A stretch of DNA of 64,000 nt from assembly GCA_020881915.1 (NCBI GenBank), contig JAJFPB010000008.1, positions 2,852,001 through 2,916,000 on the forward strand. The letters are read 5' to 3'. Below, piece after piece: positions 14,218-57,950 of this stretch. The DNA is from Paramyrothecium sp. XJ0827 (Eukaryota > Ascomycota > Sordariomycetes > Hypocreales > Stachybotryaceae). The first letter of the stretch is position 1. Each line of letters starts with the position of its first letter. Both the position numbers and the translations under genes were made by a program. The notes under the pieces are model-generated. The model was not told where the DNA came from and did not search any database. It worked only from the letters and a program-made list of their open reading frames with translations.

Positions 14218-17200
14218 CTAAACCTTCACTCCAGACCGTCGAAACACATCGTGCCTCTCACTGTTTAAGACTCTCTTGCCTTGCAAAAATCCTAGGCCGG
14301 AAAGATACTCCACGCTTTTGCGTAACGCTTGCAGAGTCTTGTCGCTGGTTTCCTCATTTTGTCGGCATTCCAAAACATGTTCGTCATTGCCTTGCCCAAG
14401 ACCTGAATCGAGACATTTGCCACTGCCGGTTCTTTCTTTATACATCGCCAGACGAGCATCGCCGATTTTCCCCTTGCGCTGTTCCACCCATTCCATGACA
14501 GGCCAGAGGAGATGTGACGACCCTTGGCGGGACACATTCGCGTTCACTACACGGAACCAGTCGTCGAAATTCATCGCATGCAGCGTCATTCCAGTGCCCT
14601 CTGAGACTGCCCTCCAGAAGTCCTTCACAGGGATGCCTTCCGTCATTTTCAGAACCTGAGGTATGTGCTCGCTGTCGCATCGGCTGCCGAGGCACGCATG
14701 GATGATGCATTGTGCTACGTGATCTGCACCCGCAAGGCAAACCATCGCATCCGGCTCGCCATCGACAAAAGCCCCGGCTTCACATGCCCCGGCGACCAGC
14801 CGCCAGATAAAGTCATCTGTATTGGAGATGCCTTCGGCCGCTGTGCCAATAATGATGCCGGGCTTGACCATGTTGATACGCTGGCCAGCGGAAGCGCGAC
14901 CGATAGACCGTTGAACCAGAATATCAGATGCAAACTTGGACTGTGAATACCCGTCTGCAGAAGAGAGGCGTGAGGAGTCGCTTGCTACTGCACTCTCTGA
15001 AAGGTGCATCTCGCCGCCCGATACGTAGGTGCAATGCTGCAGAGGTCCACCTCCCGCCAACGCGAGCTTCAGGATTTGCAATGTGCTCACGACATTCGTT
15101 GCACGCAGTCTTTCGTAGCTTGAGGACCAGTTCACGTCGGCTCCGTTGTGTATGATTGCGGTGACTGCCTCTGATTCTTGGACGCATGTTCCCTGGAGGC
15201 GTGCCCACTGATCTATAGATAGACCCAGTCGCGGCTGTGCAAGGTCTCCTGGCCAGACTTCAATACGGCTCGCTAGCGCAGGCGACCACCATCTAGCGGT
15301 AGTACCGGCGGCCGCAATCCGTTCAAGGCCGGCATTCGCATCTTTCGCCCGAACTAGCACGATGACTTTCACTACACTGGGAAGAACCAATAGCTGTCGA
15401 AGAATTTGGCTGCCAAGGAACCCGGAAGCTCCTGTTAGGAACACCACACTTTTACCTGTTTGTCTTTTCGGCTTGGAAGTTTCGTGTTGGTGCGTTTGCA
15501 AACCTGCCAGCTCTTTATCAAGCTCCTCAATGTCTCGCAAGATATTGGCTGCTCTGACGCGTTCTTCAGATTGGTGGACAACGTGGTCCCGGCTGCGCAC
15601 AATCTCGGCAATGTCCCGGACTCTCAAGTTGGCCTTCCTAAAAGTCTTGACAGGGATGTCGATGCCATAAAAGTCGTTGACTGATCTGGCAAGTGAGACA
15701 GTCCTCAAGGAGTCAAGGCCGAGATTTTCCAGTGTGGCATTCTTTCCCTTGAGAGGATTTTCTCCCTCAGACTCGGGTTTGCGTAGGACGTTGACAAGTA
15801 TGTCACTAACCTCGAGCGCGATCGTGTCGTCCTGGGGTATTTCGGTCAGGACTTCCTCGCTCGAACCTGATTCGGTGTACTTGAATAGCTCGATTGTTGA
15901 GAGGGTTCGAGCATGCTCCTTGAGCTTGGCACGGTCAACCTTTCCGTTCGAATTGATCGGAAGCGTGGCAAGAGGTATGAATATTCGAGGAACCATATAC
16001 CCAGGCAATGTCTCCATGAGACGAGAGCGGATTCGGGCAATCAGTATTCCCAGTTTCCCCTCCGACATATGACTCGACTGAAGCGCACCATTGGCTACGC
16101 CATTGGTATTTCCATCCGCATTTCGATTCTCTGAGCATTTTAGGAATGCCACTAATCTAGGCCCACTGCCGTGTAAGTCCACTAAGTCGACGGCGACATC
16201 GCCGGTTATTGAAAGCTTCGATTTGATGTTTTTTTCGGTCTCCTGATCCTTTCCAGTGGAAGTGGCGTCGTCTACAGCCGTTTGACTCGATATGTCTAGG
16301 CTTTTGCGGATGACCGACTCTACTTCCTCTACCTCAAGCCTCTGTCCTCTCACTTTAACCATTGTATCTTTCCGTCCAATGTACATCATTGTACCATCGG
16401 GCAGATAGCGTACAAGATCACCGCTTTTGTAGAGCTTGGACGTGGATGCGGGAACGTCAAGACTCTGCCTCCATGACGGGGCGTCGATTAAGACTTGCTT
16501 CGTCTTCTTGGGATCTCCGAGGTACTCTTTCAGAAGACCAGGGCCCTCATAGAGCATCTCTCCAATAGCACCCAGAGGTGATAGAAGTTCGGGGTTATCA
16601 GGGTTCACGATCCAAGAATAGGTGTTAGGAGCGGGTCCAATGGGTACAATTTTGGGACAAGGACCATCAAATTCGGCCAGGAAAAATGTAGCCGACTCGG
16701 CCGGTCCATATGCTAAATCACGGCAGTTAGCAGAGCAGGCTTCTTTGCTTCAAGCATGGTCTCCTGAAGTCCTGAGACCATAGGCGGCAGCTTCTCGAGA
16801 CTGGAATAAAAAGGAGAAAAAGAACATTTTTTCCCGGAATACTTACAGTGAATGACTTTGACACGATTGTTCCACGCATTGATATCATCGGAAGTGACAA
16901 CCTCGCCCCCCATGAGCAAGGTTTGCAAACTGGGAAGGTGATATTGTGCGAACAAGCGTGCAAAAGAGGGAGTGAAGTAGGCCCAGTTGACTGCCATTCT
17001 ATTCATGCTTTCTTCCACATTGTTGAGGCGCTCTTCATCCGAGGGAATGCATATGCATCCGCCATAGATTAACGGTGCATAGATCTCTACCATGCTGACA
17101 TCAAAGGTATAACTCGACCATTGATAGGTGGAAACACCCTCCCGATCGAGATGCTGCAGAGGGGCGTTGGAAAGAATACCCGTTACAAGAGAGTTGTGTG

Positions 17201-18600
17201 TGTGCACGATGCCTTTGGGATTTCCCGTGCTGCCGGAGGTGAAGGCCACAATGCATGTATCGCTGGGCTGGACGTCTGCTGACCTGTAATGGCGTTCTTG
17301 ATGCACAAGCTCCACAGTCGGAACTAACGCGCAATGCCCATCAAAGCGGCTTTTATACTGGGTAGATGTGAGGACAAGCGATGCGTCGAGAGTATGAATA
17401 ATCGAATCGTGGCGGGCGCGTGGATGGCTCGGATCGAGACAGCAATACGCCGCTCCGGTCTTAAGTACTGCAAGCATGGAGACAATGGCCCAGGTACATT
17501 TCTCAAAGCACAAAGCCACTTTTTTCCCGGACTTCAGGTCATAAGTGTCCACGAGATGTGCTGCAAGAGCGGAAGAGCGCTTATCCAACTCCGAATACGA
17601 CATTTGCCCATCCCAGGACTTAATAGCTATAGCATCAGGCTTGTGGCGGAAGCCCTGTCCAACCAAGTCGTGGAGCAGTTTGTTGGGAATGCTTGTCGAA
17701 TGTTGGTTCCAACTAGATATAGTTGCTTTGCTTTGCGCTCCGCAGATGTCCAGGTCTGCGATAAACGTATCGAGTGGGACTGAGGAGATGGAATGAAGAG
17801 CTGCAGCAAAAGAGTCCACAAATCCTCTGGCAACAAACTCAGAGATTTGGTCAATGTTGTAAAGCATGTGTACCGACATTGACAGTTCGTCAAAATACAA
17901 GACAAGGTCTAGACCGTCCTGAGACCTGATCAGCGAAAGGTCAGTAGATTACCACTCCAAGGTTACTCACGTGCTGTATAGTAGGGATAGAAGAAAATTT
18001 ATCCATTGTATTGGGGACTAGTTTCTCAAAGACAAGGCTTGCCGTGGGCTTCTTGGCCAATCGTCCGCCGTTGAGCGTTGCAGAAGTCTTTGGATTTACC
18101 AAAAGCGGCCCCAAGTCATCATCGGACAAAATTCCATTTCCCTTAAGACCAAGAGCTGTGCGGATGCAGGTTGTAGATGCGAGCTCATAGACATATTGCA
18201 GCTGTTGGCTCCTGCTTATTGCGCCGTGGTTGTGGCCGTTCGCATCGTCTTTCGAAATAGCTTTGGCATAGATGAACTCTGCAAGATCGAAATATTGATG
18301 AATCACTATCGCAAAAGCTAGCTTTGCGATTGATACCGGGGCAACCTCGTGGCTTGAACAGAATACACCTAAGTGGGTCTGTCTGGGCATCGAGATGGCA
18401 ATCGAGGACAACATGGCTGAGATGTTGGTTTGACAACAAAACAGAAGGACTGCAGGTAAGGGATTAAGGCACTGTTGCCTATGATCAATAGATGTAAATA
18501 AAGGACCAGTCTGAGTGGAGGCGGGCCGACAACAATGTTTGCGTACAATGCTTTTAAATTGGTAAGAATGCGCCTTTGCTACCGAAGGTGAACCCTTCAA
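14218..18600 (-). CDS. NRPS-like enzyme: partial C, then A-T-R (reductive release)
   Basis: Three exons: 18600-17971, 17918-16847 and 16712-14218; introns of 52 and 134 nt keep frame (about 1,398 residues from this start; an inner ATG at 18414 gives about 1,336). The first 300 residues resemble only the C-terminal half of a condensation domain; I find no HHxxxDG. The A domain has FTSGSTGNPKG (A3), YTFDVSMVE (A4, with the Asp that holds the alpha-amino group), YGPAE (A5) and NSNGKVDRAKL with the A10 Lys. The T domain has LGLDSLR with the pantetheine Ser. The C-terminal R domain has TGASGFLGS (NADPH Rossmann) and YSQSK (catalytic Tyr/Lys). It should load an alpha-amino acid and release it as an aldehyde or alcohol. 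An eye alignment suggests the pocket D-V-V-Y-L-G-S-T-F-K. Substrate is unknown. Confidence 0.87.
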
Positions 18601-19385
18601 TCATATTTATACCTACACGAATCGTTTCTTTTGTTTACCGGAAGGTGTCAAGAGAGTGCCTGACCGTTGCTCGATAAAGGCAAAAGGTTCCCACCGAGCT
18701 CCTGCTAGGACCAGGAGCAAAATCCATGGCTCAAGACGTGGCCATCATGACAACTTTGGCTTACACCCCTTCCTGCAATGTCAGCCTCTTACTCGCCTTA
18801 CTGTGAGGTCAGGTTTTAGGGTTTGATCTGCTACAAAATACAGGGAGGTACGTTGAGAGTGGGCCGACAGGGTCTGAAATCGAATTAATTACCCCCCGGT
18901 ACTTTTCGAGGCATCCAAATTACTGAGTGAGATTTGTACCGGCCAGGGTCAAAAGTTACCTTATGCAAGTGTCCGAATATGTCCCTGTTGAAATAAATTG
19001 TCATTACTCATACCGCCTATGGAAAGAGGCAGCCAGTGACTCTCTAGTTTCTTCAAACCCAAGCACTAGGTTAGAGGGTTCACGTCGCAAATCATACAGT
19101 GAGGTTTTTTGCATTTCGCGTCTACTTCGAGGACGAGGCGTATTTGTTCAGCCAGAGCCAAATTGGATCCTTAGACTCTTATTACAAGATTATCTTATAC
19201 CCTTCCTGCAAAGGTATCGTAGTTGCTGCGCATCAAAACACATGATCTGTTGTCGGAAGCGGCGTTGCCATTGAGCAATTACTTTCGAGCAGTCCGCATT
19301 TGGGACTTGTATACACGAATTACAGTGGATAAGCTGGTCTGATGAAGCCCCAATGACTGATTCAAATCTATTCTAACTATGTGGA
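18601..19385. other. intergenic, promoter of the NRPS-like gene
   Basis: About 0.8 kb between the NRPS-like gene start and the stop of the PLP-enzyme gene, both on the minus strand. A 115-residue open frame here has no recognisable features. Presumed promoter only. Confidence 0.5.
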
Positions 19386-20829
19386 CTAGCATTGAACCCG
19401 ATGTTGGAACTGTGCCTGTACTACATGATCCAGAGCATTGATGAAAGTTTGGATGTCTTGAAGATTGTTATAGTGGACCAAGCTCACACGAAGCACACCC
19501 CCATCATCCAGTCCGAGTACGTCATGCACCGGCCTGAGTGAATAAGCGTTCCCTGCCAGTATGCGGCACGGAGATGACTCGTGTATGGCTTTGGCGATGA
19601 CTTTGGAAGACACTCCATTGACCGTGAACGAAACAAGTGATACTCGAAGCTTCGGATCAGATGACTTTTCGCCGTAAAGGGTGAACCATTTCGGGTGTGA
19701 GTTGAGGTATTCGAGCAGAGGTTGGACGATGACTACTTCATGGTTGATAATATTATCCCAACCGATGCGCTGAATGTACCGTACAACCTCAAGCACACCA
19801 TCTTCGAACTCGAAACAGTTCATGCCTAGGCGGACTTTAATGTCGAGGGGTTTGGGGTCCAAATGATAAAGGCCCAGGCTCGTCATGTACCGTTGCTGTA
19901 CGGAGCTGCGGGCGTACATTTGTGCATAGTGTGGCCCAAACAACTTGTACCAGCTGAAGAAATAGAAGTCAACGTCCATTTCTTTGACATCAATGGGCCG
20001 ATGAGGAGCCCACGCCACTCCGTCGACCGAGAGCAGGGCACCCGGAACTGTGTGGACAACATCTGCGACTGCACGGATGTCATGGATGGTACCGAATATG
20101 TTTGATACATGACCACAAGCGACAAGCCTAGTCTTGGGGGAGAGCAGCGGTTTCAGAGTCGCGATGCTAAGTTTGGCAGTAGTATTACCCTTCCCACCAG
20201 GCGGTGACCACCACTTAATCTCGATGCCCAAGGATCGTGCCAGAGCCACCCATGATGTGACGCCGGCTTCATGACACAATGTTGAAACGATGATTTCCGA
20301 GTCAGAGTTGAGCAACGGACGTAAGGAGGTTGTCACGTTACGGATGAGGCCACTAGTGGAGGGACCGAAAGCTGCACAGGGTTGTCAGAGAGCATACTTG
20401 TCATGGTATTGCAATTTTGCCTATGCCGGCTGTCACGTACCAACTTCGTCGGGCTCGGCGTTCATGAACGCTGCGAGTTCGGCGTACTTCGACTTGCGTT
20501 CATCAGTGTGACGCTGACTGACTGCATCACCGCCGATGAAGTCAAGTTGGTAGGTTGACATGGCGTTTGCGATGCTGGGTTGACTATTAACTTCGGCTCG
20601 GGCTTCTAATTGTGAATGATGAAGACTTGGAAAGGAAAAAAAAAAAAAGGAAAAACAATACGTACGCTTTGACAGCACCTTCATACACCAAGCTACCTGT
20701 GGCGTTGTTGAGGGGAACCAGATCTCCTCGCAATGCTGGAAAGTGCTGTCTAACGCTCTCAACATCGTAAGCCATCGTTGCGCCGTTTGTGCTGTGAGTA
20801 TTATCCGGGCTGGAACCAGCGGCCGTCAT
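19386..20829 (-). CDS. class V aminotransferase fold PLP enzyme (cysteine desulfurase-like)
   Basis: Exons 20829-20666, 20583-20441 and 20371-19386 with introns of 82 and 69 nt give 430 residues in frame. The N-terminus YDVESVRQHFPALRGDLVPL-NNATGS and the segment AEPDEVAFGPSTSG match the cysteine-desulfurase-like subfamily of class V PLP enzymes. LLSVDGVAWAPH carries the Asp that contacts the pyridine nitrogen, and FFSWYKLFGPH holds the PLP Lys. Members act on amino acids (desulfuration, epimerisation, C-N or C-S bond chemistry), so the reaction here is open. It lies next to the NRPS-like gene and shares a promoter with the oxygenase, which argues for a shared pathway. The first intron has a long pyrimidine tract before its 3' end. 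Confidence 0.85.
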
Positions 20830-21646
20830 GGTGGCAAAGGGATGTTTTGAGGGTATGTGAATGGTCGAAATATGGGCAGAAGGCTTCGTTCTTTTGAAGA
20901 CGCACGCTGCTGATGCACGCGTATCTACTATTCGAGGCAGTTCAAGGACAGAGAAGTGGATACGGTCGCCAATATGTTTCGCCAATGGAGCCTCTGAGTA
21001 GTTCCACCTGAACGGAAGGAATAAAAAGGAGAATGGCCTGTTATCAAGTGGAATCTACGAGGCGCCTACGCCCTCGAAGTTTGATTTCCAAGTTCTCTGT
21101 TTGTAGTAATATAGCATTGCAAGAAGGGGTGTAAGCCAACCTGACGCGAAGGTGTAAGCCAAACTTATGCTCAGGGTATAAGCTAACCTAATCAGACTGG
21201 GTATAAGCTACCATATAGGCCGAGGCATAATCCAACCTTAGGAAAAGGGAGTAAGTCAGCCTTACAGGAAGTGATATGAGCTTAGCTCCAGGAATGGTGT
21301 CAATTTACCTTGAGGGAAGCGGCGTAAGCCAGCTTTACAGGAAGGAGTGTACACTGAACTTGTAGACATTCCGTGTAAGCTACCTTGAGGGAATGGTGGC
21401 TACGCTTCTGTACGCATTGTGACTTTCGTGAGAAGCTGGATCGTTCATTGCGTAGGATTGATCGAAACATCAAAAAGTAATTCTAACGACGAACATCCTG
21501 ACAGAAAGGTTAAAAGGCATGGAAATCCCCCCCAATTCTCTGCATAGCTCTCAACTCCTTCATCCATCAGATTCTCACATATAGCTCTTCAATCCTCTCA
21601 ACAGATTCATTTATTTGGTGACCCAGTCTCCTAGCCCAGCAACAAG
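20830..21646. promoter_or_regulatory. bidirectional promoter of PLP enzyme and oxygenase genes
   Basis: An 817-bp divergent intergenic region without coding potential. It contains the 24-bp tandem array at 21129-21419. The last 130 bases before the oxygenase start are C/T-rich, as in fungal core promoters. Confidence 0.7.
21129..21419 (+). repeat. degenerate 24-bp tandem repeat array (about 12 units)
   Basis: Units of 23-26 bp follow each other without gaps. The common core is GTAAGCCAACCTTAC, followed by a purine-rich AGGAAGG-like tail. The core is an inverted repeat, GTAAG-N5-CTTAC; it is perfect in the unit near 21252-21266 and near-perfect in the units near 21131 and 21323. Copies differ at many positions, so the array is old or under partial constraint. 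I infer a cluster of binding sites for a dimeric regulator. A non-functional minisatellite is the alternative. Confidence 0.75.
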
Positions 21647-22780
21647 ATGTCTACTCTTCCTGTCATCGACTTTTCCATCTATTACAATGGCACCGACGCT
21701 GATCGTACCAAGTTGGCCACTGCAATTACGGAAGAACTCCGTAAGCACGGTGCTATGCGCCTGAAGAATACCTCGATTTCTGCCAAGACAATCCAGGAAG
21801 GCTTCAAATGGGTAGAGATCATTTGGCCCAACTTAGCAAGGTTGATAACACGACTAACGTCACATTGTTGATATAGGGCAAGAAGTTTTTCTCGCTCCCC
21901 GTTGCGGAAAAGGAAGCAATTCCGAACGAACGTAATGCAAACCCTCAGCGAGGTTGGAGCTATGTCGGCTCCGAGAATACCTCAAAGCTCGACATGGTCG
22001 AGAACGAAGGACTTGAAGACGAAAAGGTCGACTTCCTCATCTCGCTATGATTTCCTAAATGAGAAATTGCTAACATACAATCCGGCTTTGTAGGAACACT
22101 TTGACCACAGCTCTGCAGCTGATACTGAGTTCCCCAGCAAATGGCCGTTGGAATCCAGTATCCCAGGTTATCGTCAGTTCATGGAGGACTTGTTGGAGAA
22201 GTGCCACGTCGTTGGCCGGGAAGTGCTGGAAAACTTGGAACAAGGTCTCGGCCTTGCTAAAGGCGAGCTTTTGGACCGCTGCTGCGCGTCTCCAATCATC
22301 GACGAGCTTCGTATCAACTACTACGCCCCGATCTCTACAGAGAAGTTGAACACCGGCAAGTACCGTCGTGCCTGGCCGCACACTGACTTTGGGATGATTA
22401 CGCTGCTATTCCAAGACGACGCCGGAGGCCTCGAGGTGCAAGACCGCTATAGCTCCGAGCCGGAAGCGTTCATCCCCCTCGTGCACGGGGATCCCACGGA
22501 GGTGTTGGTGTACGTGAGCAACAGTCTTGAGTACATGACCAACAACTATCTCAAGGCGGGTCTGCACCAAGTTGCTACCCCGATCAGTATGCAAGACGTG
22601 GCCAAGGGCATCTTACCAGAGCGTCAATCGCTCGCATGTTTCATCAAGCCCCGTCGTGAAGTGAACGTGGGGCCAATGAAGCAATTCATTACACCGGAGA
22701 GGCCCAGGGCCTATGAGGACTTGACGGGGCTAGAACTTCACAGGGTTAGAGTTGGAAAGCTGTATGGGGCGGCTGCTTAA
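21647..22780 (+). CDS. 2-oxoglutarate/Fe(II)-dependent oxygenase (isopenicillin N synthase-like)
   Basis: Exons 21647-21811, 21877-22026 and 22094-22780 give 333 residues. The second intron has a GTCGAC donor, which is weak, but the frame and family alignment support it. The N-terminus LPVIDFS is typical of the DIOX_N domain. The Fe ligands are the HTDFG His and Asp and the His in KAGLHQV; RQSLACF provides the Arg-x-Ser that binds 2-oxoglutarate. RINYYAP is the usual RxNYYP-like strand. Such enzymes hydroxylate, desaturate or cyclise small molecules in the cytosol. It is divergent from the PLP enzyme across a repeat-bearing promoter, which suggests co-expression. Confidence 0.87.
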
Positions 22781-23586: not shown

Positions 23587-24533
23587 TTACCAGTCTTGAA
23601 TGCCATCTACCCGAACGACCTTTCCAACAACGTGGTCGTGCTCGCCATCTACAACAGCCTTAACAAGACGACCGCCCTCGGCAGGGTCCCTAGCTCCAAA
23701 CTGCTTGTTTGTCAGCGCAACGTTATAGAAAAACCAGGGGGGGGTCAACAACTGACCTTTTTCAGAACCTCGGCGCCAGCACCCCCCAGACCCGTAGCGA
23801 GGAATCCTGGCGAGATAGCCCATACTTTGACTCCGTCATTGAGAAGAATGCGATGCCATTCGCGCACCAACATATTGAGCCCTGTCTTTGTGCTCCGATA
23901 AGAGGTATATAAGGGTGTAGACGCCGACTTGGGCCATCCATTTGGTGGACTTGCGTTGAGGCGAGCAATATTTGCGATATCGAAGCGTTCCGATTCACTA
24001 AGAGAAGACGTGCCGCTTGTGATGAATAGTATCTTTGGTTCCGTAGATTTAAGAAGTAAAGGAACCGCCATCGTGGTCAAGATATGGGTTCCAGTCACGT
24101 TCGTGTCCCATGTCGTATTAAAGGCATCGCGAGTAGTCATTTTGCCCTGGGTGATTGATGAATCAAGTTGGATACCGCCATTATTGATGAGAACATCCAG
24201 CCGACCAAATCCTTTGTCCAAACTCCTCACTGCGGCTTCAAGTGACGAGTCGGATGAGAGGTCCGCCTGTACTGTGCTGAAGGTTGAAGTTGTATTAGGA
24301 ACAGCAAGTTTGACTTGTGCGATAGCCTCCTCGCCTTTGGTGACAGAACGGGACCCGATGACAAGTTCATAAGCGGTTGAGGTTGAAGCGGCAAGGGCTT
24401 TTACAATCTCCAAACCAAGTCCAGTGTTACCTGTAGGGGGCGGTATGAGCTCACGATGTCCTTTGCTTTGAGTTGGTAGCTTTGATGATTACTTACCACC
24501 AGTAATGAATACCACCTTCTTGTCCGTTGACAT
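23587..24533 (-). CDS. short-chain dehydrogenase/reductase
   Basis: Three exons: a short first exon from 24533 encoding MSTDKKVVFITGG, a main exon ending near 23756, and a last exon ending at 23587. The joined protein has the dinucleotide motif TGGNTGLG across the first splice. It also has INNGG (in place of the usual NNAG), ITSGTSS with the catalytic Ser, and YRSTK with the catalytic Tyr and Lys. The C-terminus ends KVVRVDGIQDW, as in many fungal classical SDRs. It is a cytosolic NAD(P)H oxidoreductase. In context it could reduce or oxidise an intermediate made from the aldehyde released by the NRPS-like enzyme. Intron 2 starts GTCAGT and contains a C8 run. Confidence 0.85.
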
Positions 24534-25117: not shown

Positions 25118-27435
25118 ATGCACACCAGCATGTCACAGCGGTCCGCCCCAACGGTCCCCACTCGGACAACTCGCACACCCGTTCCTTATGGACAGGCCTG
25201 TATAGGTTGTTCCAAGGCCAAGTGCAAGTGTGTGCGTACTGGAAACTCGGCCGACGCTTCTTGTCAAAGATGTCGGCGTTTAGCCAGACCTTGTCAACCT
25301 TTGCAAACCTCTCGCAAGAGAGGCGGCGGTCGACCACCAAACAGAACTGCCAAGATCGAAGAAAGACTGGAGGACCTTATCAGTCTATTGCAGTCACCAT
25401 CTCGATCAATTGGCCTCACAAGCGGATCATCTGAAGAACGAGATCGCTTACAATACGCGTAAGTCATTGTGATCATGGCCCCCTTCCCCAACCCCTCAGA
25501 TGTACCAGCCCAATCACAGCTGGTGGATCGTGATCCATTGTCGTAGGTCTGAATACTATCGTTAGACTGATGAGGTGTGTCTAGAGTCAGATGATTAGGG
25601 TAATGTTAACTGGCCGTATTAGAAGATCTCCGCTCCGACCACGACCACCCCATCCTGGAAGAACTGGACCAGCGATACCCTCTGCCAGTATCTCGTCAGC
25701 CTCACAGATGTTATTGGAGGCATCCGCGATCGACATTTTGTGTCGTGATATTGAAGAAACGGATCTGAGCAAAGCAGAAGAACGCCTACAGCTCTTCCGA
25801 TCCACCTACATTCCCATTTTCCCCATGGCATATCTTTCACCGGAGACTACGTGAGCCTTGACACCAACAACTATAGCCACTACTCCGATAGGCTAATAGA
25901 ACTCTAGGACGACACATCTGCGACTGCAAAAGCCGTTCTTCTGGCTGGCAATCCAAGCAGTATGTAGCAGTCCAATTACATTAAAATCAATGCTCGAAGA
26001 AACTTTTCGCCGGGTGTTTGCCGAAGCCGTGTTCGTTCGATTCGAACGCAGTTTAGACCTGCTCCTGGGGCATATCGTATATTCGACTTGGGGCGATTTC
26101 GTACACAATGGAAACCAGGCATTCCAAATGGGCGCTGCAATAGCAGCATCGTTTGTCGAAGATCTTCTCCTTAATAAGCCTCCCGGTACCGAAGCAATTG
26201 GTTTCAAAACATTCGCATATGGTGCCAACGCTACGCTGGAACCGAGGAGCTCTGAACATGGCTCATCGCAGCTGCACAGAATACTGCGCACAAACGAGGA
26301 ACGGAGAATCCTTTTAGCCTGCTCTTGTCTTTGTTCAAGGTCAGTTTAAACGCCATTTACCTGGTTTGAATGCCCGCATCTCATTTATAAGTGATTGACA
26401 TGGACTAACCTGAGCTTCAGCACTTTTCACAAACTGGGCACCTCACCAATGCGCTGGACACCGCATATGAAGGAATGCTTGCACCATCTCGCAACAGAGC
26501 CCGAATGGGAAAACGATGAGGTTCTCGTAGTGTTGACAAATTGTTCTAAACTACTGGACGACGTTTTCAATGCTTTAACCTGGGAGCATGAAAATGGAAA
26601 TAGTGTCATACGAGAGCAACACAGAACGATTCCTACCATTGCCTTGAAGGTGTTAAAGCAATCCTTTGAAGAGATAAGCGGCAGGGTTCGTCCCGAATTG
26701 CTTGACAACAGTAAGCTGCCTATCAGACCCCACATGAAAAAAAAAAAGAAAACCATCGCGAATGTAGCAGAATTTTTGCTAACCAGTAGATTTCTAAAAG
26801 ACATTGTAAGATTCTGGCTTTTCTTGTCCAAAACATTGATTCACGACTTGGCATTGCAAAACCCAAGTTCATCGTCAAGCTCCCGTGTCAACCTCGCTAA
26901 GGCAGAAAGCCTATACTCCTGTCTCTATGCACTCAACTGCTTCTTCGACAGCTTCTTCGCATTAACACCCCAAGATTACCGCGCCTTACATATGCACTAT
27001 TGGCTTCAATACATGCGTTGCACCCGTGTTGTTTATCGACTGCTTCTTTCAGACGACCCAGCTTGGGACGTGAGTACTGTACAAGAGAGCGTTGATCTGA
27101 TGGCAACCCTTCAGCGCGGCGTTGACATTTGCAAGGGACTAACAGCAGCCACGAGTGGTGAACCAGATGGGAATGACCAATTCGGCGTGCTTGCTGTACA
27201 TTTGCAAATTGTCATGGCCATATGGAGTGCGGCACTCGAAAAAGCCAGGCCGTCGGCACCCGCCGCTACCAATGCGGCCAGTGACGGCAGCACAAACTCT
27301 GTGACTATAAACAACGACACTGCCGGGGGGTTCACGGTTGCACCTATGAATTTGCCTGAGAATGCTCTGAGGCTGGATTTGTTCGACGATGTATGGATGC
27401 GGCATGTCATTTTGACTGACTCTGCGCTTCTTTAA
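25118..27435 (+). CDS. Zn2Cys6 transcription factor, probable cluster regulator
   Basis: The ATG at 25118 begins a protein with the binuclear zinc cluster ACIGCSKAKCKCVRTG...SCQRCRRLARPCQP, whose six Cys have normal spacing apart from a slightly long loop. A basic linker RKRGGGRPPNRTAKIEER and a short coiled coil (LEDLISLLQ) follow, then the fungal middle homology region (LEEAFQ-like segments, PFFWLAIQAVCS). Exon 1 ends near 25458. One or two introns lie between 25459 and about 25600, and their exact joins are uncertain. Further introns are 25852-25909 and about 26339-26420. The end DDVWMRHVILTD is typical. A run of lysines from AAAAAAAAAAAG at about 26738 may lie in another small intron. Its position suggests it controls the cluster. 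Confidence 0.8.
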
Positions 27436-29811: not shown

Positions 29812-32800
29812 TCAACCTTTTCTTCTATCACATTCTTTTAATCTCTCTTCCATAATTTGTACGATATCATCATGCTTTTTGCTTATGGCCACGTCGAGAG
29901 CTGTTTTTCCAAGGTCATCCTCCAGTGTGAAGTCTGCTCCTTTATCAAGAAGAAGGGTCACGCCATCCAAATACCCATAAAAAGCAGCTTTCCATATCGC
30001 TGTCTGCCCACTCGAGTCCCTTGCATCAATTTCTGCGCCTCTATCGAGAAGGATCTCGACAATGTCTAAATACTTGTAGTTAGCTGCAATGATCAAGGGC
30101 GTCCACGTAGGGCACTCCTCCTCATTACGGCTTTCGATGCTGACGCCAGCTTCAATCAGCATTTCAACCATAGGAGTGCGGCCTAATAAGACCGCACGTG
30201 ATAGAAAGAGAGAAAATGTAGTTTTTCTGGCTTCGTCGAAAAGACTTATCTTGCCCTCACCATGCATGGCTTGTAATCGGGTTAAAAGTATTTGAAATGT
30301 CTCAAATTTCGGACTTTCAATCGTCGCAAGTATAGCCTCAAACAATTGCTTTTCGAAATCTTCGTCATCTGAATTGCGAGCTAGTAGAATAGCCACGAGC
30401 CTTGTCCAGCCGTGTCTGGAGAGGCTGGTCATGAGATAAGTATCTTCATTCTCCAGGAACTGCTCGAACAATCTCGACTTATTTGATGAAACAATTTCGG
30501 AAAATACGTCCGCCTGTGGAATAGCACGTGCAGCCTCGTCTGCATGGTAGAACAGAAATCGGCCCACGTAATCCTGAAAAAGAGTCTTCCATCTGGTCCG
30601 GGCATATTCCCTGCGCTCGCTAGCATTTGATATCAAACGCCGACGGCTCGTGTCCAGAACGGCTTTCCTATACACCAAGCAACATGTTTTCAGTCGATCG
30701 TGACTTATGCTGTAAATGTCGCTCAAGTCTGGCCACAATTGTTGAAGACCATTGTGCCCGATAAGAAAGTCGCGCACTGATTCGTGAATAAACTGCACAG
30801 TTGGCCCATCCCAGGCCGTTGTCACTTCAGCCAAGCCTTTAGATGAGCTGACAACAAATCGGTGAAGTTCTTCAGTATCAGGGAGCTCGATGATGGCAGT
30901 ACCACTGTCGCCCATCTCAGGGAGCAAACCAACGACTATGGCGACGTAGAGCTCATCTATCCTCAAGGGACGAGCGGCAAATAAGATCCATTGAAGACAG
31001 AGAAGTAGCTCATCAGATTTCTTCGCATCATTTGTCAAAATCGCGCTGAACAGCTCACTTAGTCCTCCGGGTAACTCTTCAAGTCGGCTTTGAAGTCGGT
31101 ATAACGCTCCATCACTGAAGGTTTCGTTGAGGATATCCACGACTAATACGAGCCATAGGAAGACCCCGTTGGCTTTCTGAAGTACTTTTGATCGGATATC
31201 CTGAGCAGCTTCTGACTTTCCGATTCTCAGCCGCCGATCAACATACGTTTGCATGTCACTGGAATGTCCTCTTTGATCCTCCAGTGTAATTGAACTACCA
31301 AACTCGATAGCGATGTTTGGATAGTGCCGGCTAGAGAAACATATAAAGAGTGGAACCGATAGCTCGAGGGCTATTTCTTCCAAGTCTTCAAAATATGCAA
31401 CCAGATCTCGGACGTCTTTCCTATCACACTCGTCAAGAGCATCGATGAAACAAACGACACGTCTTGAGCCGAGTCGCTTCACTGCCGCCGTGAACGTTTC
31501 ACGTAGCATCTCCAAGGGCCACGAAACACCATCTTCTTCTTCGAAAAGACGGAGTTCCTTGTCCAAAACATTTCGTAAATCTGGTAATGTTTCGAGTAAC
31601 TGCAGAAGCAATGACCGATATAGTCCGAGAACGTTCCTCTCGAGCTCTTGCCCGCGTGCATTAAAAAAGAAAGAGAGGATTGCTGCATTTGCGGGACTCT
31701 GCTGCGCACGGAGGAGGGCATGCTTCATCAACGTCGATTTGCCAGTGCCAGGCTTCCCTTTTATCCATAAGAAGCCATGGTGTTCCTTGAAAAGGCTCAA
31801 GTCTGACCAGTCTATGTAAGTATCATGATGAAATAGCCATTCGCATGTATGGGCCTGCGCATGTTGAATTGTCTGCTTCCGGGAGCTCATCTGCTTGAAG
31901 CGTAATGAATCAAGAATATCCATGCGTGCACCTGTGGAGTATCTCAAAGTAAGAATTGAACTACTAAGCAGTCTATGGCGAAGCTCTTACCGGCATAGAG
32001 AGATCCTATGTCTCTCTGAGACTCTGTAGGGGACACAACGGACAGCCATTCTTTGGCATATGCCGCAGCTGCGCCCGCAGCATATCTTTGCCAACTTTTG
32101 TTCTTATGCGAATCGGAGTAATCGCATATCCCCCGGATTGCAAGGGTCGGGAGGCTGTCTACTAAGCCGGCAGCCTCCATCTCAAAACACAAAACGTTGA
32201 ATGTCTGTGCTATTTGGTCTCTTGCGACAGCATTCTTCATGACCTGGTTGGCACAGGCAATGGTCCCGTAATGTATCCTGGGACCAGTATTGTTACGGAA
32301 TTCTCTGACGACTTCTTTTGAGACATCGCAGAGGTCACAGCTATCATGACTAGGGTCATGAACGTAAGTACTCTCAAATAATCGATCTTGCAGTTGACTA
32401 CAATCTGCATATTTGGGCAAATTGGCTTTCAACTCGGCCATAAATAAAGCTATTTCGCTTTGTCCTAACTCGTGTTGAGACTGCAAAGCGGCCACAGCCG
32501 TCATGATCTCATGGGGAGGCACCCTTGGTGTAGCAGTGACGAGGAAATCAGACTCAGTCGTCTTTCCGAGGTCGTACTGAATCAGTTTCGTGCCAACGAC
32601 TACATCGCCCAAGCGTATATCAGTTCTGGTAGGTGCACCTCCTCCGATACCAACCATAAGACCCAGGCGGATGGAGGGAAAAGTCCGCCGCATATTGCTC
32701 GCAACAATGGCTGCATTATTCATACCATAGCCCTCAGCAGGAAGACAGGCAATGGCAACATTGTGCTGGCCAAGTTTCCCCAGCACATACGTGTTGCTGT

Positions 32801-32993
32801 CATCTTGCCGAGTTACCAAACGAGGATGTACTTCATCAAGCACAGCTCGAGCAGCTGCCATTTCTATAGCGAGCGCGCAAATCCATCCAATCGTGTAGTC
32901 ATCGTATGTAAGTGTTTGGCTGAATGCCTCTGTCGAGCCCAGCCCTTTGCGGGATCTTTCTGAAACATGCTGGCTTGCTCGGCTCCCAAGCAT
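29812..32993 (-). CDS. NLR-type protein: PNP_UDP-NACHT-ankyrin
   Basis: Exons 32993-31991 and 31931-29812 with a 59-nt GT-AG intron give 1,040 residues in frame. Residues about 30-320 are a nucleoside-phosphorylase-like domain (DDYTIGWICALAIEMAAA, MVGIGGGAP, FEMEAAGL, GICDYSDSHKNKSWQ). The NACHT NTPase follows, with Walker A GKPGTGKSTLMKH and Walker B VVCFIDALDECD, then a helical winged region. At the C-terminus there are about three ankyrin repeats (WTPLIIAANYKYLDIVEILLDRGA; GQTAIWKAAFYGYLDGVTLLLDKGA). Proteins of this design are fungal STAND receptors linked to non-self recognition and programmed cell death. Few repeats remain, and they are not near-identical. Intact, no lesion seen. Confidence 0.87.
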
Positions 32994-33546: not shown

Positions 33547-34056
33547 AAGAAACACACGCCATCTGGTTTTATTTTAGTCTCCTCAGGTGGGGAAGGGTGC
33601 TTTAGTCCCAAGCTGAGCACGATTAGACCGGAGGCGTGTTGACTGACTGCCATCTATATGCATATTAGCCGCCAGCAGCGAGAAGGGGCATTGTGAGCTT
33701 TGGCTATTCTTACCTATCTAAATCAGCTTTCTGAGTTTTGTGCGGGGGATTGGCGGCAGTGCCCTGCTGTTGACTTCATCTGCCTCCATCGCTGAAGAAA
33801 CGACCGCAACCTAGGATGGGTGGAGCGTAAATGGTCCGTGGCTAGGCGGCAGGTGAATCCTTCACTACCAGCGAGAAAAATCATGATTGAAGAGTCATCC
33901 GTCTCCTGGATCTGTCAGGAGGCTCTCAAATCTTGGCTAGCGCAAATGAGACTTGGAAGGCGTCCCGGCAAACCAACGATGTGACCTTTCCTCTACTCTG
34001 GTGCTGCTCCAATATTGGTTTTCTTATTATTTAGGTCTTACAGTCTTCCCAACTCC

Positions 34057-34129
34057 AGTGCCCAGTACCAGTGCCCGTGCCCAGTACCAGTGCTTAGTAC
34101 CAGTGCCTAGTACCAGTGCCCAGTACCAG
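34057..34129 (+). repeat. 13-bp minisatellite
   Basis: About five units of AGTGCCCAGTACC, one with a 6-bp insertion. Two units carry C-to-T changes in the CCC triplet. Confidence 0.8.
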
Positions 34130-42765: not shown

Positions 42766-45466
42766 CTACTCATCAGATGGAATGGAGTCTTCCCTCCATT
42801 GCTCGAGCGCCTCTCTTGAAAGAACTGTACCGGGGTGGTCTGCTCCTAAAGCTTTCTTCCGTTGATCCGCAACTTCTTCCATCATGTCAATAGCAGCCGC
42901 TAGATTGTTCTGTTCCCTCCACGTGAGTGCTAAGTTGTATCTTGCTTGGAGGGTGAGTGGGTGCATTTCCCCTAAGAGCTGTAGGCGACATTTCAGCACC
43001 TGGATATACAAGGCCTCGGCTTCGTCGTGCCTACCCTGGCCGTAATAAATGTTAGCAAGTCGGGTCTGGTGCCTCGATGCATCAATACCACGCTCTCCTT
43101 GAAGTTGTAGCGAAAGATCAAGTACTTGAACCTGAATTTTCTCGGCTTCGTCAAGTCGCTGTTGGCAGGAGTAAATCTCAGCGAGCAGTGATTGTGCCTC
43201 AAGTGTTCGTGCATCAATTTCACCATGCTCTCTCGTATATTGCTCTATGGTGGGAAGACAAAGGCTTTCTGCTTCGTCATATCGCTCCTGCTCCACAAAA
43301 ATCCACGCGAGCAAATTTTGGATACCCAGTGTATCGGTGTGCGATTTCCCCAGCGTGTTTTGCCTGCCCTGTAGTACTTGAGCGGCCAACTGCTCCGCGT
43401 CATTGTAGCGATGTTGATTAACATACGTCCAAGCAAGATTATGCATGGTGTTAAGAGTGCCATTGTTCATTGCGCCCAGCGTCTTTTTCCGCCTTTCCAG
43501 CACTTCGATTTCGAGCATTTCGGCTTCACGATACTGGCCGAGACCCTGCAGTGAAGTTGCCTGCTGTGCCAAGCTGACGAGAAGGTGCTGTGGGGCATCC
43601 TGCAACAAGGCTACAGCCGTCCGATCGACCCCCTCTTTTTCCCGCCATCTCTCGCGCTGATGCAGATAATCCGAGACTCGCTGAAGTAAAAGGCCCACGC
43701 GTTCCTTTTCCTTGCAGATGGTGACGGAATCGGCCACTCGCATCGCATGCGCCAGGTACTTTTCGCACTCTTTCCAATACGGATAGTCTGCATCTTCGGG
43801 GAATAATTCCTCTAGCACGCAAAGAGCCGCCTGCGCAAAGTATTTTGCGCCTCTCTGGTGCTTTTCTCGAGCAGTTGATCCTGCAGCACCTCTGGACTCG
43901 GGCGTCAATTTTGGCCTTGGTCTTGGCCTAGATGACCGTCTTCCTCCTCTCGCTTGGGCTTGTTGTAATTGGCTCATCGGCTCTGCTGCCAATTCGGGCA
44001 TGTTGTTGAGTCTGCACCGCACGCCTTCTTGCACCAGCTTGTGCATTTCATAGCTCACTTCGCCCTCTTTCGTCGTGTTGCGTTGTCGCAAGAACGAAAA
44101 GTCCTCGAGCCGCTTGACGGCTCTCCTGATCCTTACTTGGCCGAATGCGTCTGCGGTTTCTTTCTTGCTGTTCCCGTCTTCATGTGCTGCTCCTGTCCGC
44201 TCGATCAACTGCGCCGGGATGCTCTGGTTGTCGACGTACGCAAGGGTGTGCAGCACATCGTATGCCAGCCGGTCCTTGCTGTAGATATGCTTGATGGAGA
44301 TGTCCCACGTCGCGAGGATGCTGTTCGATGCCCCCTGTAGGTACCGGTGCCGGTCAGGATATGTTTGGCTAAGCACTCGCCATCGATCCTCACTCTTCCG
44401 TAGCAGGCCTAGGTACTCTCTGATACCCGTATTCGTCTGCCGCATATACGATGCCGCCTGGGATATCGCCAACGGAAGCCACTCAAGCTCCTTCAGCAAG
44501 GTGCTTATCTCCTCGACCTCCTCCGCCTCTGTTATGTCTCGCCCTACTGTTCCTCTGAACAACTCTTCAGCCTCTTCTCCGCTCATGCGGGCCACCTCGA
44601 TTCCTCGCCGCCAATTCACCAGTTTGACAAGGATATCTTTGTCCCTTGTAGTCCAGATAACTGCGCCTCCCGGGCCCGTCGGAACATATCGATCCAGCGT
44701 CTTTGCCAGCTTTGCTTCCTCCGTAACGGCATGCCTGACGTTCGTCTGCCCTGTCGTTCGCTTCTGTCCGAATGGCATCGATGGGTGTCTTCCGGAGCTC
44801 TGCGCTCTTGAAGCGGGAGATCTTGGACCACTTATTCGTCCTTGTGTGGAGCTTTCCCCCAGCGATGTCTTCCTCATTGCATTCGTTGTTTCGTGAACTG
44901 CATCATCAACACCAAACAAGCCCAAGTTGTCCGCGTTGTCAATTATCAGCAACCACTGTGGCTCGTTCTGGATCGCATTTCGCACAGTCTCGAGAAGTTG
45001 ATCGACTTTTCGATTGTCAACGTCTATTTCTAGAGCCCGGCCAATAGCTTGGTAGCCAGAAATGAACGTTGCTTCGTCCTCCGCATGCACCCAGAACACG
45101 GAGGAACGCCCATCCTTGCTTCGAGTATATGCATATTCGAGTGCGAGCTGTGTTTTTCTTTGCATCCATCAGTACTCTTCACATTCCATTATCCATCGTC
45201 AGGCTCATCCACACTCACCCAGAGCCTCCGAGGCCATACAGTACTACATTCTGCCCGCCACCAGTCGCCGGAAGAAAGCCATCCAGCTGTGCGGCGAGAT
45301 CGGGTCTTGGCACCATGCCTTCATTGGGTGGAATTGGGATATGCCACCGACAACGACGAGTTGTTTCGGGTGCGTTGAAGTTGTTGTTGACAATCCCGCC
45401 AGGTCCGACTGCCGACGAAACGACATTGCGACCGCTAACCTGATCATGATATGCTGTTCCGCTCAT
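42766..45466 (-). CDS. NB-ARC-TPR STAND protein (fungal NLR-like)
   Basis: Exons 45466-45219 and 45157-42766 with a 61-nt intron give 879 residues in frame; the intron splits the P-loop GLGGSGKTQLALEYA. The N-terminus is only about 55 residues and holds a Gly/Asn/Val-rich stretch, GRNVVSSAVGPGGIVNNNFN. An NB-ARC NTPase follows (LLIIDNADN as Walker B, VIWTTRDKD as sensor region, LEWLPLAISQAASYM as GxP-like motif), broken by a Ser/Arg/Gly-rich insert at about 190-235. The C-terminal 300 residues are kinesin-light-chain-type TPRs of about 42 residues (LAWTYVNQHRYNDAEQLAAQVL; LAWIFVEQERYDEAESLCLPTI). The role is probably ligand-triggered oligomerisation in self/non-self signalling. No lesion seen. 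Confidence 0.86.
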
Positions 45467-55200: not shown

Positions 55201-55538
55201 TTGGCAACGGTGCCTTTAGGCCGAGCTACTCGTTTGGCAATGGTAATTCCTTTCCAAGCTTTCCCCAGCAGCCGCGGCAGGGCTTTCCACAGCAGCAGCA
55301 GGGATTTCCCCAACAGCAGCAGACCTTTCCACAGCATAACGGGTTCGCGGGCAACATGGGACCACAGCAAGGCGTGTTTCCCGTGCATCAGGCGCAGCCG
55401 GTCGCGATGCAAGCGCATAACGTTCAAGCAGTACAGCCACAGCAGCAACAACAGCAACATCCGGGGTTCCAGCAGGGGTTGATGCCAGGCATGGTCGATA
55501 TGCGGAGCAGCTCACCACAGCCGGGAGTATCGATGTAA
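52300..55538 (+). CDS. fungal AAA+ ATPase with Gln-rich tail
   Basis: Six exons (52300-53962, 54012-54197, 54253-54312, 54362-54409, 54456-54611, 54667-55538) sum exactly to 994 codons plus stop. The first 550 residues are a coiled-coil start (LSASLEAELEKIQLL) and a conserved fungal region before the ATPase. The AAA+ core has Walker A HGVPGVGKTS, Walker B CVLLLDEADIFLA, TTNR sensor 1 and an Arg-finger region FKSRIHISLYY. The C-terminal about 120 residues are rich in Gln, Pro, Phe and Gly (GFPQQQQ repeats). Intron 2 (54198-54252) starts with GC rather than GT. This ATPase type is common in ascomycetes; substrates are unknown. It is divergent from the nSTAND-like gene. Confidence 0.85.
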
Positions 55539-57950
55539 GGTTGGTAATTAACAAGGCAAAGCGCAGAGATCAAGCTTGATCTCTTGATTATTGTTTGTAA
55601 TATGGTCCTGGCGTTTGTTTGGCAGCCCTTGGACAACCCACGGGGAGTGTAAACTGACTGATGGCTCTCCTACTAAGATCCCATTCCTCGACCCATATAT
55701 TCTCTGAATCGTCCTGGCCTAACCAAGAGGCTTCATACCACACTGACCCACCATATCTGACCTACTTCCTCCTTAAGTTGCTAAACTTAAACTCTATCTT
55801 TTTCTCACCATCCTATAAGCCCCTTGCTCCCAAGCCAACATCTGCTCATTGTGCCCAGGTATCATCTTTGGAATAAAAGTTTAGCCACCTAACTTTAAAG
55901 TAGATCCTCTGGCCAATCCGTCCTTTGCTAACAATATCTTTGACTTCAAAGTCAGTCCTCTCGATATGATCTTGATTAGGTGGGGTATCAGCTGCATTTA
56001 TGACCTCCAGGATATCAGTACCCAATTAATCATTGGTATGGACGAATCTCTCCTCAGAGGGACTTTCTTCGTACTTAATAATAGTTGACCTTAAATATTG
56101 TTTCCCCTCCGATTCGTATCTCAATTGCCTACAGCTGGGTTTCAGGTCGCCCTCGCTGAGTCAAATATAATCGAACTTTATTATCTTTGACTGGAGTTCG
56201 ATGCTTTCTTCTTTCGTTATTATTGTGGAATTCAAGATCTCAGGACCTATTAGAGTATCCCCACTAAGGGCTATTAAGTAGCTACTGCTTCTTAAATGCA
56301 TCTTTTCTTCTAAAATAATTTCTTTACTAGCAGATAGCTTATATCTCTTCCTCAATTACTTGCCCATAGTTTCCACTAATTTATTAAAAAACACATCCTT
56401 CATCTCATATTCACCTTCTATTCTATGCTCGGCCTTGAATCGCTATCATTTGCAGGTCGTAGATTTTTCTTCGCTTGCCCCTTTCATCGTCCTAAGAGGT
56501 CTAAAGGGTTTTAGCGGTTCTGGCCTATCTAGGCCATAGATGTCTTGTAGGTAGAACTCTTAGTCTAGGACTAATTTAAACTCTCCGGGGCATTTGGGCT
56601 TGGGATTTATACAACAGAGAGTTCCTATTTAACCATGTCATTTCAGTCTCAAATCATCCATGTATTTGCGCATATGGGCCGGCCAAGGTACTCTGCAGAT
56701 AAAGTGCTTCATTCTATTTCCCGGTAGAAGAGACCTATTAGCCATACAGAAGGGGCAGTAGCCTAGGTTCGCCAAGACTCCCACGCAAACCAAGTAGTCG
56801 AAATACACTAGCAATCCGCTTGCTTCTTGGCAATGTTGGTCGCAGTGCTCGTCCCATTCTAACACCAAGAACCACATATATCACATGTTGCAAATAAAGC
56901 AGAACTTAGTGCTACATTTCTCCTTATCGCATTTATAAACATGTTCCCAATCGTAATGGCCTTTTTATCGTAGCCCTAATTATCGCATTGGCATTTATCA
57001 TATCCTAGTCCTGGCCTCAACGCGACTTCAGCTCATTGTTGTTGTAGCTTGACTATATCTTCTAGTATAAAAAGCCCCAGCTCGCTTCTCATGGTTCCTT
57101 CTTAAAAAAGTTTCTTGCCAGTCGATCTCTTTCTGGCATCGCGAATCTGATACAATTGAAGATTTAGTGCTGATATTCCTGCTGAGCATCCAGATCATAG
57201 GGCTGGGTCCTCTGCCATTCCTGAAGGGATAACTTCCACACAGCTCGTTTTTAACTGAGAAGTTGCCGTAGTTGCTCTCCGCAATTGGAGCCCATATTTG
57301 ATTGCAAGATAATGATCTTCTCTTATAAATCCAGGTATTTGAGACTATTCTGAAGTTTATACTTGTGACGACCGGGCCTGAACCTAAGTACAGGGTAGGT
57401 AGTTTTTGCGGTTTATTATCTAACGCAGGGAACGGGGTTCCCTCTTGAAGCAATGGGTCACTTGTCACTAGTCTATAAGACCTCGTCTCTAGAAGCTGGT
57501 CAGAGGATATCTCGGGGACTGTATGGTATTGATAGCTGGTAGGTTCTAGTCAAGTTACAATGTGCGGAACCTCCCATCTATATAGGTTAGTTTGTTGCCG
57601 GATCGCTGGATCACGGTGTAGTCGTGATCCATCGATTTGTGTTTAGATCACGGTGTAGTTGTGATCCAGTGATCTATTACTATTGTCTTTCCATTTCGGG
57701 CCTCATTGTTTTTTACCGCGTATTAGCTACAAACAACTTTTTAGTCAAGAAATGCGAATCACGCAAAGGAAGTTTCGTAGAGCCTTTGTGAATCTGCTTG
57801 CTTGGCACGCAATGAAAAAGGTGCCATCAAGAAATGTCTGCGTAGTTGACGCATCCATAGCAAGAAGCGCTTGAAATAATTGGTCTAGGAGATCAACATC
57901 TGTTCCCGTTTCATTGTCCCCAATTTTTGTTGCCCTCCAGCTTGCCCAAC
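55539..57950. repeat. AT-rich degraded repeat island
   Basis: A 2.4-kb tract visibly richer in A/T than its neighbours, with many TAG/TAA in all frames, which suggests an old mobile element mutated by repeat-induced point mutation. Minus-strand frames at 56638-56877 (WDEHCDQHCQEAS...GYCPFCMANRSLLPGNRMKHF) and 57028-57468 keep coding-like text. The Cys/His pattern recalls a segment of repetitive fungal FluG-domain/zinc-finger proteins. I infer a decayed transposon-like element. Confidence 0.5.
57608..57670 (+). repeat. duplicated hairpin
   Basis: GGATCACG-GTGTAGT-CGTGATCC at 57608-57630, and a second copy with one base changed at about 57645-57669. Each is self-complementary at its ends. Confidence 0.75.

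Follow-up and report, generated by a model that had tools for sequence, protein, structure and literature searches.

A degenerate direct-repeat array in the divergent promoter of a Paramyrothecium gene cluster, with a near-exact copy of its unit before a neighbouring NRPS-like gene

Introduction

What is the role, if any, of the short direct repeats that fill part of the intergenic region between a class-V PLP-enzyme gene and a divergently oriented 2OG-Fe(II) oxygenase gene of Paramyrothecium sp. XJ0827? A preliminary description of this locus had proposed twelve 24-bp units built around a dyad-symmetric core, GTAAG-N5-CTTAC, displayed nearly on one face of the helix as an operator-like array and bound, perhaps, by the Zn2Cys6 protein encoded close by. 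We have re-examined these proposals in the window, that is, the whole 64-kb stretch of DNA analysed (contig C14, 2852001-2916000), and in the genome to which it belongs (51.77 Mb in 15 contigs). The picture that emerges departs from the proposed dimer operator: judging from the sequence comparisons presented below, we think it probable that the array represents an amplified, asymmetric element serving the cluster, with drifted copies in the promoter common to the two divergent genes and single copies before the neighbouring NRPS-like gene.

Results

The locus and its genes

Table 1. Features of the locus, in coordinates of the window
Feature	Positions	Strand	Remarks
NRPS-like gene (AMP-binding, carrier, NAD_binding_4 reductase)	14218..18414	-	ATG 18414 from reading frame
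Isolated copy, CATTGCAGGAAGGGGTGTAAGCCAA	18756..18780	-	24/25 identical to 21115-21139 (blastn)
Second, marginal copy, TTTGCAGGAAGGGTATAAGATAATCTTGTA	19183..19213	-	after the 3' end of the PLP gene, ahead of the NRPS-like gene
Class-V PLP-enzyme gene	19386..20829	-	ATG 20829 from open frame
Degenerate direct-repeat array	21115..21390	+	8 clear units, 11 at most; spaced 24.4 bp on average
Claimed twelfth unit	21391..21419	+	leave-one-out score -13.5; unsupported as copy
2OG-Fe(II) oxygenase gene	21647..22780	+	start 21647 from open frame
Short-chain dehydrogenase (SDR) gene	23745..24530	-	upper end approximate
Zn2Cys6-like regulator gene	25118..27435	+	exon model by eye

The closest solved structures are UstD (7mkv) and FGM3 (9x4u) for the PLP enzyme and UcsF (9ktp) for the oxygenase, and the closest named proteins to both the PLP and the NRPS-like products come from filamentous ascomycetes. 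UstD being a decarboxylative aldolase according to a published abstract, the association of a UstD/FGM3-like PLP enzyme with a UcsF-like oxygenase suggests, by analogy with these relatives only, a modified and perhaps gamma-hydroxylated amino-acid product; the NRPS-like protein, with its terminal reductase, could, again to judge from its relatives, give an aldehyde. One other relative of the PLP enzyme, 44% identical, was found in the same genome, and further searches with the enzyme returned no match on viral contigs and two distant bacterial loci on genome contigs.

The translation of the regulator gene displays the cysteine pattern CX2CX6CX10CX2CX6C, and the gene, at a distance of 2.3 kb from that of the oxygenase, is readable throughout with the exon model drawn by eye; its exon-1 protein yielded no Pfam match at E 0.01. 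Other nearby DNA-binding genes were sought by a Pfam scan of 35 frame entries (including 2 exact repeats and 3 that overlap earlier ones), covering some of the 162 stop-to-stop frames of at least 75 residues outside the named genes. Neither bZIP nor C2H2 families were encountered among the frames scanned, nor was any bANK-type protein, the ankyrin matches belonging to a NACHT protein. The latter belongs to a set of adjoining minus-strand frames at 29812-32993 that encode PNP_UDP_1, NACHT and ankyrin domains and are read as a fungal gene of the NLR-like kind; another candidate lies at 42766-45165, where a protein rich in TPR repeats matches AAA weakly.

A real but worn array

That a direct-repeat array separates the PLP-enzyme and oxygenase genes, as originally described, is borne out by the self-identity of the region. 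Between 21121 and 21420 this amounts to 0.445 at lag 73, 0.413 at lag 24 and 0.390 at lag 49, values that all exceed the highest one (0.387) attained at any lag from 5 to 119 in 1000 dinucleotide shuffles, and lag 24 at the array is the strongest among lags 15-60 over the 300-base stretches of the window. A repeat search likewise retrieved a 33-nt family of eight copies, seven of which are 61-76% identical to the reference copy. The periodicity of these head-to-tail copies thus goes beyond that of shuffled sequences, yet Tandem Repeats Finder, the tool by which the array was to have been verified, reports nothing here down to a score of 30. Elsewhere in the window, at a score of 50, the same program finds arrays only at 34055-34129 (periods 6, 13 and 19) and 55260-55336 (period 21).

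The extent and regularity of the array call for revision. The 24-bp period survives in the spacings, which range from 23 to 26 bp with a mean of 24.4 bp over the first 11 anchors, but the units themselves are degenerate, their mean pairwise identity being 0.53 (11 units, 24 columns). Leave-one-out scores are 27.3, 17.1, 14.3, 13.1, 13.3 and 11.7 for units u1 to u6, and 0.3, 13.8, 17.5, 5.4, 5.5 and -13.5 for u7 to u12; eight units (u1-u6, u8 and u9) are therefore clear with scores from 11.7 to 27.3, u10 and u11 are weak, u7 lies near zero and is doubtful as a copy, and u12, whose score is negative, is no copy in this register and must be dropped. At the opposite end, matching sequence begins at 21115, further left than the position 21129 assigned to it before. 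With these limits the array lies 257-532 bp upstream of the oxygenase ATG and 286-561 bp upstream of that of the PLP enzyme.

The wear of the units is what would be expected of a decayed minisatellite, generated by slippage or unequal exchange and devoid of any regulatory role, whose copies outside the array would be stray pieces. The prominence of lag 73 over lag 24 also agrees with this explanation inasmuch as block duplication gives such a pattern, though a higher-order repeat of three units, tested for without gaps, found no support (p 0.77).

What is conserved in the unit

A sharper distinction between decay and selection can be sought in the columns of the unit, which we number with the G of GTAAG as 0. 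When all 12 units are counted, conservation is highest in columns T+11 (12/12), G-2 and T+1 (11 each) and G-3, A+3 and C+5 (10 each), and the column counts indicate that the left arm of the core is better kept than the right arm. The best-kept part of the unit reads approximately GGTRTAAGC; the consensus of the element is approximately TTGCAGGAAGGGGTRTAAGCCAA(N)CTT, and the element can also be written TTGCAGGAAGGGGTRTAAGC.

When uniform decay was simulated 2000 times under each of two models, a star and a duplication tree, the overall spread of column conservation proved ordinary (SD p 0.054 and 0.32, respectively), as a decayed minisatellite would have it. The best block of nine columns, from -3 to +5 in 11 units, nevertheless exceeds what uniform decay produces, with p 0.0095 (star) and 0.023 (duplication tree), and thereby tells against that explanation. 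This best-block test allows for the columns having been seen beforehand, which the fixed-block values of p 0.0005 and 0.0015 do not.

Dyad symmetry and helical phasing

The dyad ascribed to the core is only partly upheld. Among nine registers tried its own comes first, with 32 matches as compared to at most 20 in the eight slid ones, but of the 12 units only u6 has the core GTAAG-N5-CTTAC exactly, and three more (u1, u2 and u9) join it when one mismatch is allowed. Permuting the right arms among 11 units reaches the observed sum in 48% of cases, therefore the arms do not covary; moreover, a perfect 5/5 dyad occurs in 6% of random 25-mers with the composition of the consensus as typed. Counted by hand, dyad matches outside the array amount to 2/5 in the first copy, which is the best one, and 4/5 in the second. 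The idea that the sites fall nearly on one helical face has to be abandoned: 24.4 bp correspond to 2.32 turns, each site is rotated by about 117 degrees with respect to the preceding one, and the phases of 11 sites are scattered, with a resultant of 0.14-0.18 at 10.4-10.6 bp per turn.

These observations bear directly on the possibility that the array is an operator whose dyads would be bound by the adjoining Zn2Cys6 protein as a dimer. Such an operator would be in keeping with the preferred register and with a readable regulator gene at so short a distance; the rarity of exact dyads, the independence of the arms, the ease with which a dyad arises by chance and the poor symmetry of the best outside copy all speak against it. 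Zn2Cys6 dimer sites commonly use CGG half-sites, and CGG or CCG occur in the array at scattered places only, none of them in register in the unit. Taken together with the distribution of regulator homologues considered below, we regard a dyad operator of this kind as improbable.

The short inverted repeats present in the region could alternatively belong to a structured transcript, either a leader or a non-coding RNA, acting in place of a DNA site. The fold z-score of -1.03, the 29 of 200 shuffles that fold equally well (plus strand) and the lack of any Rfam match in 18400-21700 leave this alternative with a negligible probability. A scan for bacterial-type promoters gave 2 matches versus 1.5 expected, a result of no relevance to a fungus.

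Copies outside the array within the cluster

A more telling observation is that the element recurs before a third gene. A profile derived solely from the array and run on both strands of the 64 kb ranks 18749-18772(-) first among off-array places with 20.3 bits, 19183-19206(-) second with 17.4 bits and 55979 third with 15.4 bits; a third-order Markov background, estimated with the same columns as the array profile and slightly different base frequencies, predicts 0.006, 0.055 and 0.23 matches at these scores. The first outside copy (18756-18780) precedes the NRPS-like ATG by 342-366 bp and has the same sense as that gene. By blastn of the two intergenic regions it aligns with the left end of the array over 24 of 25 positions in opposite orientation (E 1.6e-5), and in a search of the window with a 12-unit sequence model at E up to 10, which returned 12 matches consisting of 11 in the array and this copy, it ranks second (E 0.025).

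The second outside copy is a borderline case. It shares the 12-mer TTGCAGGAAGGG with the first and is missing from the matches of the 12-unit model at E up to 10. A score of 15.4 bits is reached with the 24-column profile at 55979, an unrelated place; with a narrower profile of 22 columns the first copy scores 23.2 and the second 14.6, followed by 54195 at 13.5, and the second copy then falls below locus L018 on another contig, C15 (17.2). Among the 12 blastn matches listed between the two intergenic regions, one or other of the outside copies takes part in each of the six best (E up to 0.12), hence there is no long segmental duplication; the remaining six, at E 0.88-2.4, are short or overlap these copies.

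The search of other cluster promoters that had been proposed as a check accordingly turns up a near-exact copy before the NRPS-like gene, and no element in the promoter common to the SDR and the Zn2Cys6-like regulator (best score 6.1), so that the element is present for three of the five genes examined, through the common PLP/oxygenase promoter and the NRPS-like promoter. The operator-like character attributed to the array is supported by this recurrence, together with the lack of near-exact copies of the 19-mer elsewhere in the genome (see below); of its other supports, the dyad is weakened and the single helical face lost. The recurrence also speaks against a decayed minisatellite: one would not expect a stray piece to sit before a third core gene, about as far from the start codon and oriented like the gene itself, and still to be identical at 24 of 25 positions while the array has decayed. 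We accordingly hold the minisatellite explanation to be rather unlikely, and the amplified asymmetric element remains the reading we favour.

Occurrence across the genome

If the element served mainly this cluster, its near-exact copies would be found here rather than elsewhere. The 19-mer AGGAAGGGGTGTAAGCCAA, allowing up to 3 mismatches, occurs at 39 places in the genome versus 9 for the reversed control, and the only two places with 0-1 mismatches are the two cluster sites; near-exact 19-mers are confined to the cluster. Nineteen of the 39 places are AGGTC/AGATC variants with 2-3 mismatches. In all eight of these copies that were viewed with their flanks, the flanks are near-identical to one another and unlike the array, and in one copy that was translated the match is in frame with a CX2CX4HX4C knuckle; the 19 places are therefore taken as one retroelement-like repeat whose match is coincidental. 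Contig C2, whose 2.17 Mb amount to about 4% of the genome, carries nine of these 19 copies; it may represent an accessory chromosome or one rich in repeats.

The remaining 18 places are scattered, have 2-3 mismatches and are twice as numerous as the 9 of the reversed control (two are mutually identical), and the element may thus not be confined entirely to the cluster. Ten of the 18 were searched as loci, and none has a second copy of at least 13 bits within 3 kb. No second array was revealed by a pattern of two neighbouring units, whose 17 matches in the genome (3 in the reversed control) comprise 14 of one dispersed repeat, 1 lone match and 2 in this array. The dispersed repeat with 14 copies reads TAAGCTCCCCTAATTAAAGAAACTAAGCT, with small variants; it occurs on contigs C1, C5, C7, C8, C9 and C12, and at least 2 copies are no more than about 21 kb away from the end of their contig. 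A shorter 15-mer at up to 1 mismatch gives 9 matches, 3 of which are in the array; the reversed control gives 9 as well.

The 19 retroelement-like near-matches, at 2-3 mismatches, are also what might lead one to see in the array the subterminal repeats of a transposon. Against this, the eight flanked copies have nothing further in common with the array, the translated match belongs to a knuckle frame and, by BLAST, the whole array finds only itself in the genome. A transposon origin, which would call for dispersed copies of the array, was consequently rejected; it is scarcely credible.

The candidate binder and the enzyme pair in other species

The adjoining Zn2Cys6-like protein had been put forward as the binder of the element. 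A search with this protein retrieved 8 homologues, the best being 41% identical over 96% (Thozetella) or 58% over 48% (Paramyrothecium). None of them came from the eight named species in which the PLP enzyme is 82-89% identical to the present one, a result that covers the 7988 most word-sharing candidates and so does not prove the regulator absent from those species. This distribution tells against the Zn2Cys6 protein as binder, as does the lack of the element in its own promoter, and in the case of the dyad operator it adds to the objections already raised.

The enzymes, on the other hand, recur together. In Plenodomus tracheiphilus, Ascochyta rabiei, Exserohilum turcica and Xylaria curta the PLP and NRPS-like proteins, searched for among the best 120 relatives of each, lie on contigs whose lengths agree, and in Ascochyta rabiei they carry the neighbouring locus tags EKO05_0006125 and _0006126; Neoarthrinium moseri, within the same best 120, has both proteins on contigs that differ in length. 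The occurrence of the pair in distant ascomycetes may point to a unit that is old or that has moved horizontally. The pair thus looks old, and the regulator, no homologue of which came to light in the eight species, looks to be no constant companion of it; the Zn2Cys6-like protein may still be the local regulator, as such genes turn over. We therefore retain it as a possible, if doubtful, binder of the element.

Discussion

Proposed mode of action

The observations above may be brought together by assuming that an element of about 20-27 bp, asymmetric in its best-kept part, is the recognition site of a regulator that serves mainly this cluster. Tandem duplication in the common PLP/oxygenase promoter would have raised it to eight to eleven copies, which would then have drifted apart while their central part stayed better conserved. 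The outcome would be many sites of graded strength, strong ones such as u1, u2 and u9 among weaker ones, whose joint effect would be a higher occupancy by the regulator, and this occupancy would drive the two divergent genes together with the NRPS-like gene. From the position of the sites and from analogous systems we would guess that the regulator is probably an activator. A more specific version, which we consider unlikely, holds that the array is a bidirectional enhancer made of graded-affinity copies, that copy number sets output and that the regulator is outside the known CGG-binding mode.

Such a view would have several implications. The element suggests that the regulated core comprises the PLP, oxygenase and NRPS-like genes, to which the SDR gene need not belong, and sequence comparison by itself here points both to an element common to three core genes and to its multiplication in the promoter common to two of them. 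The element might be used as bait to fish out its regulator, and, were copy number indeed to set output, arrays of this sort would amount to natural dials for silent clusters.

Comparison with known promoter elements

The closest known kind appears to be the pathway-specific promoter element, of which the Tox-box and the Api-box are examples, and the membership of the present element in it is putative. Zn2Cys6 dimer sites bear a more distant resemblance: a Zn2Cys6-like gene is nearby, but the unit has no in-register CGG pair. A literature search with four core 9-mers gave no fungal promoter by title among the matches listed.

The Tox-box, which belongs to the HC-toxin cluster of Cochliobolus carbonum, is not known to have dyad symmetry. 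As described in PMC4109984, it is pathway-specific, occurs singly in divergent promoters and is bound by a bANK-type protein. The present element resembles it as a pathway-specific element that would serve divergent genes, and differs from it in being multiplied and in that no bANK-type protein was met among the frames scanned. The Api-box of the apicidin F cluster of Fusarium fujikuroi, an NRPS cluster, is 8 bp long and nearly palindromic; it is enriched in its cluster, with one copy apiece in three named bidirectional promoters, and is not in the promoter of the regulator gene (PMC4109984). Here again we find an element that is enriched in its cluster, present in common as well as single promoters and lacking from the promoter of the regulator; unlike the Api-box, the present one is about 20-27 bp long, asymmetric and repeated eight to eleven times in one bidirectional promoter.

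Promoter motifs common to neighbouring genes are also what CASSIS uses to delimit clusters (PMC9335490, PMC5576322). The present element is like those motifs in that it is common to neighbouring cluster promoters and rare elsewhere; CASSIS deals with any motif of this sort, and the tandem multiplication within one promoter is an additional feature here. To the extent that a limited literature together with PMC4109984, as distinct from a full survey, can be relied upon, multiplied elements are unusual in cluster promoters. Common cluster motifs and single-copy boxes are known from these sources, and what would be new at this locus is the multiplied copy number of such an element in a common promoter.
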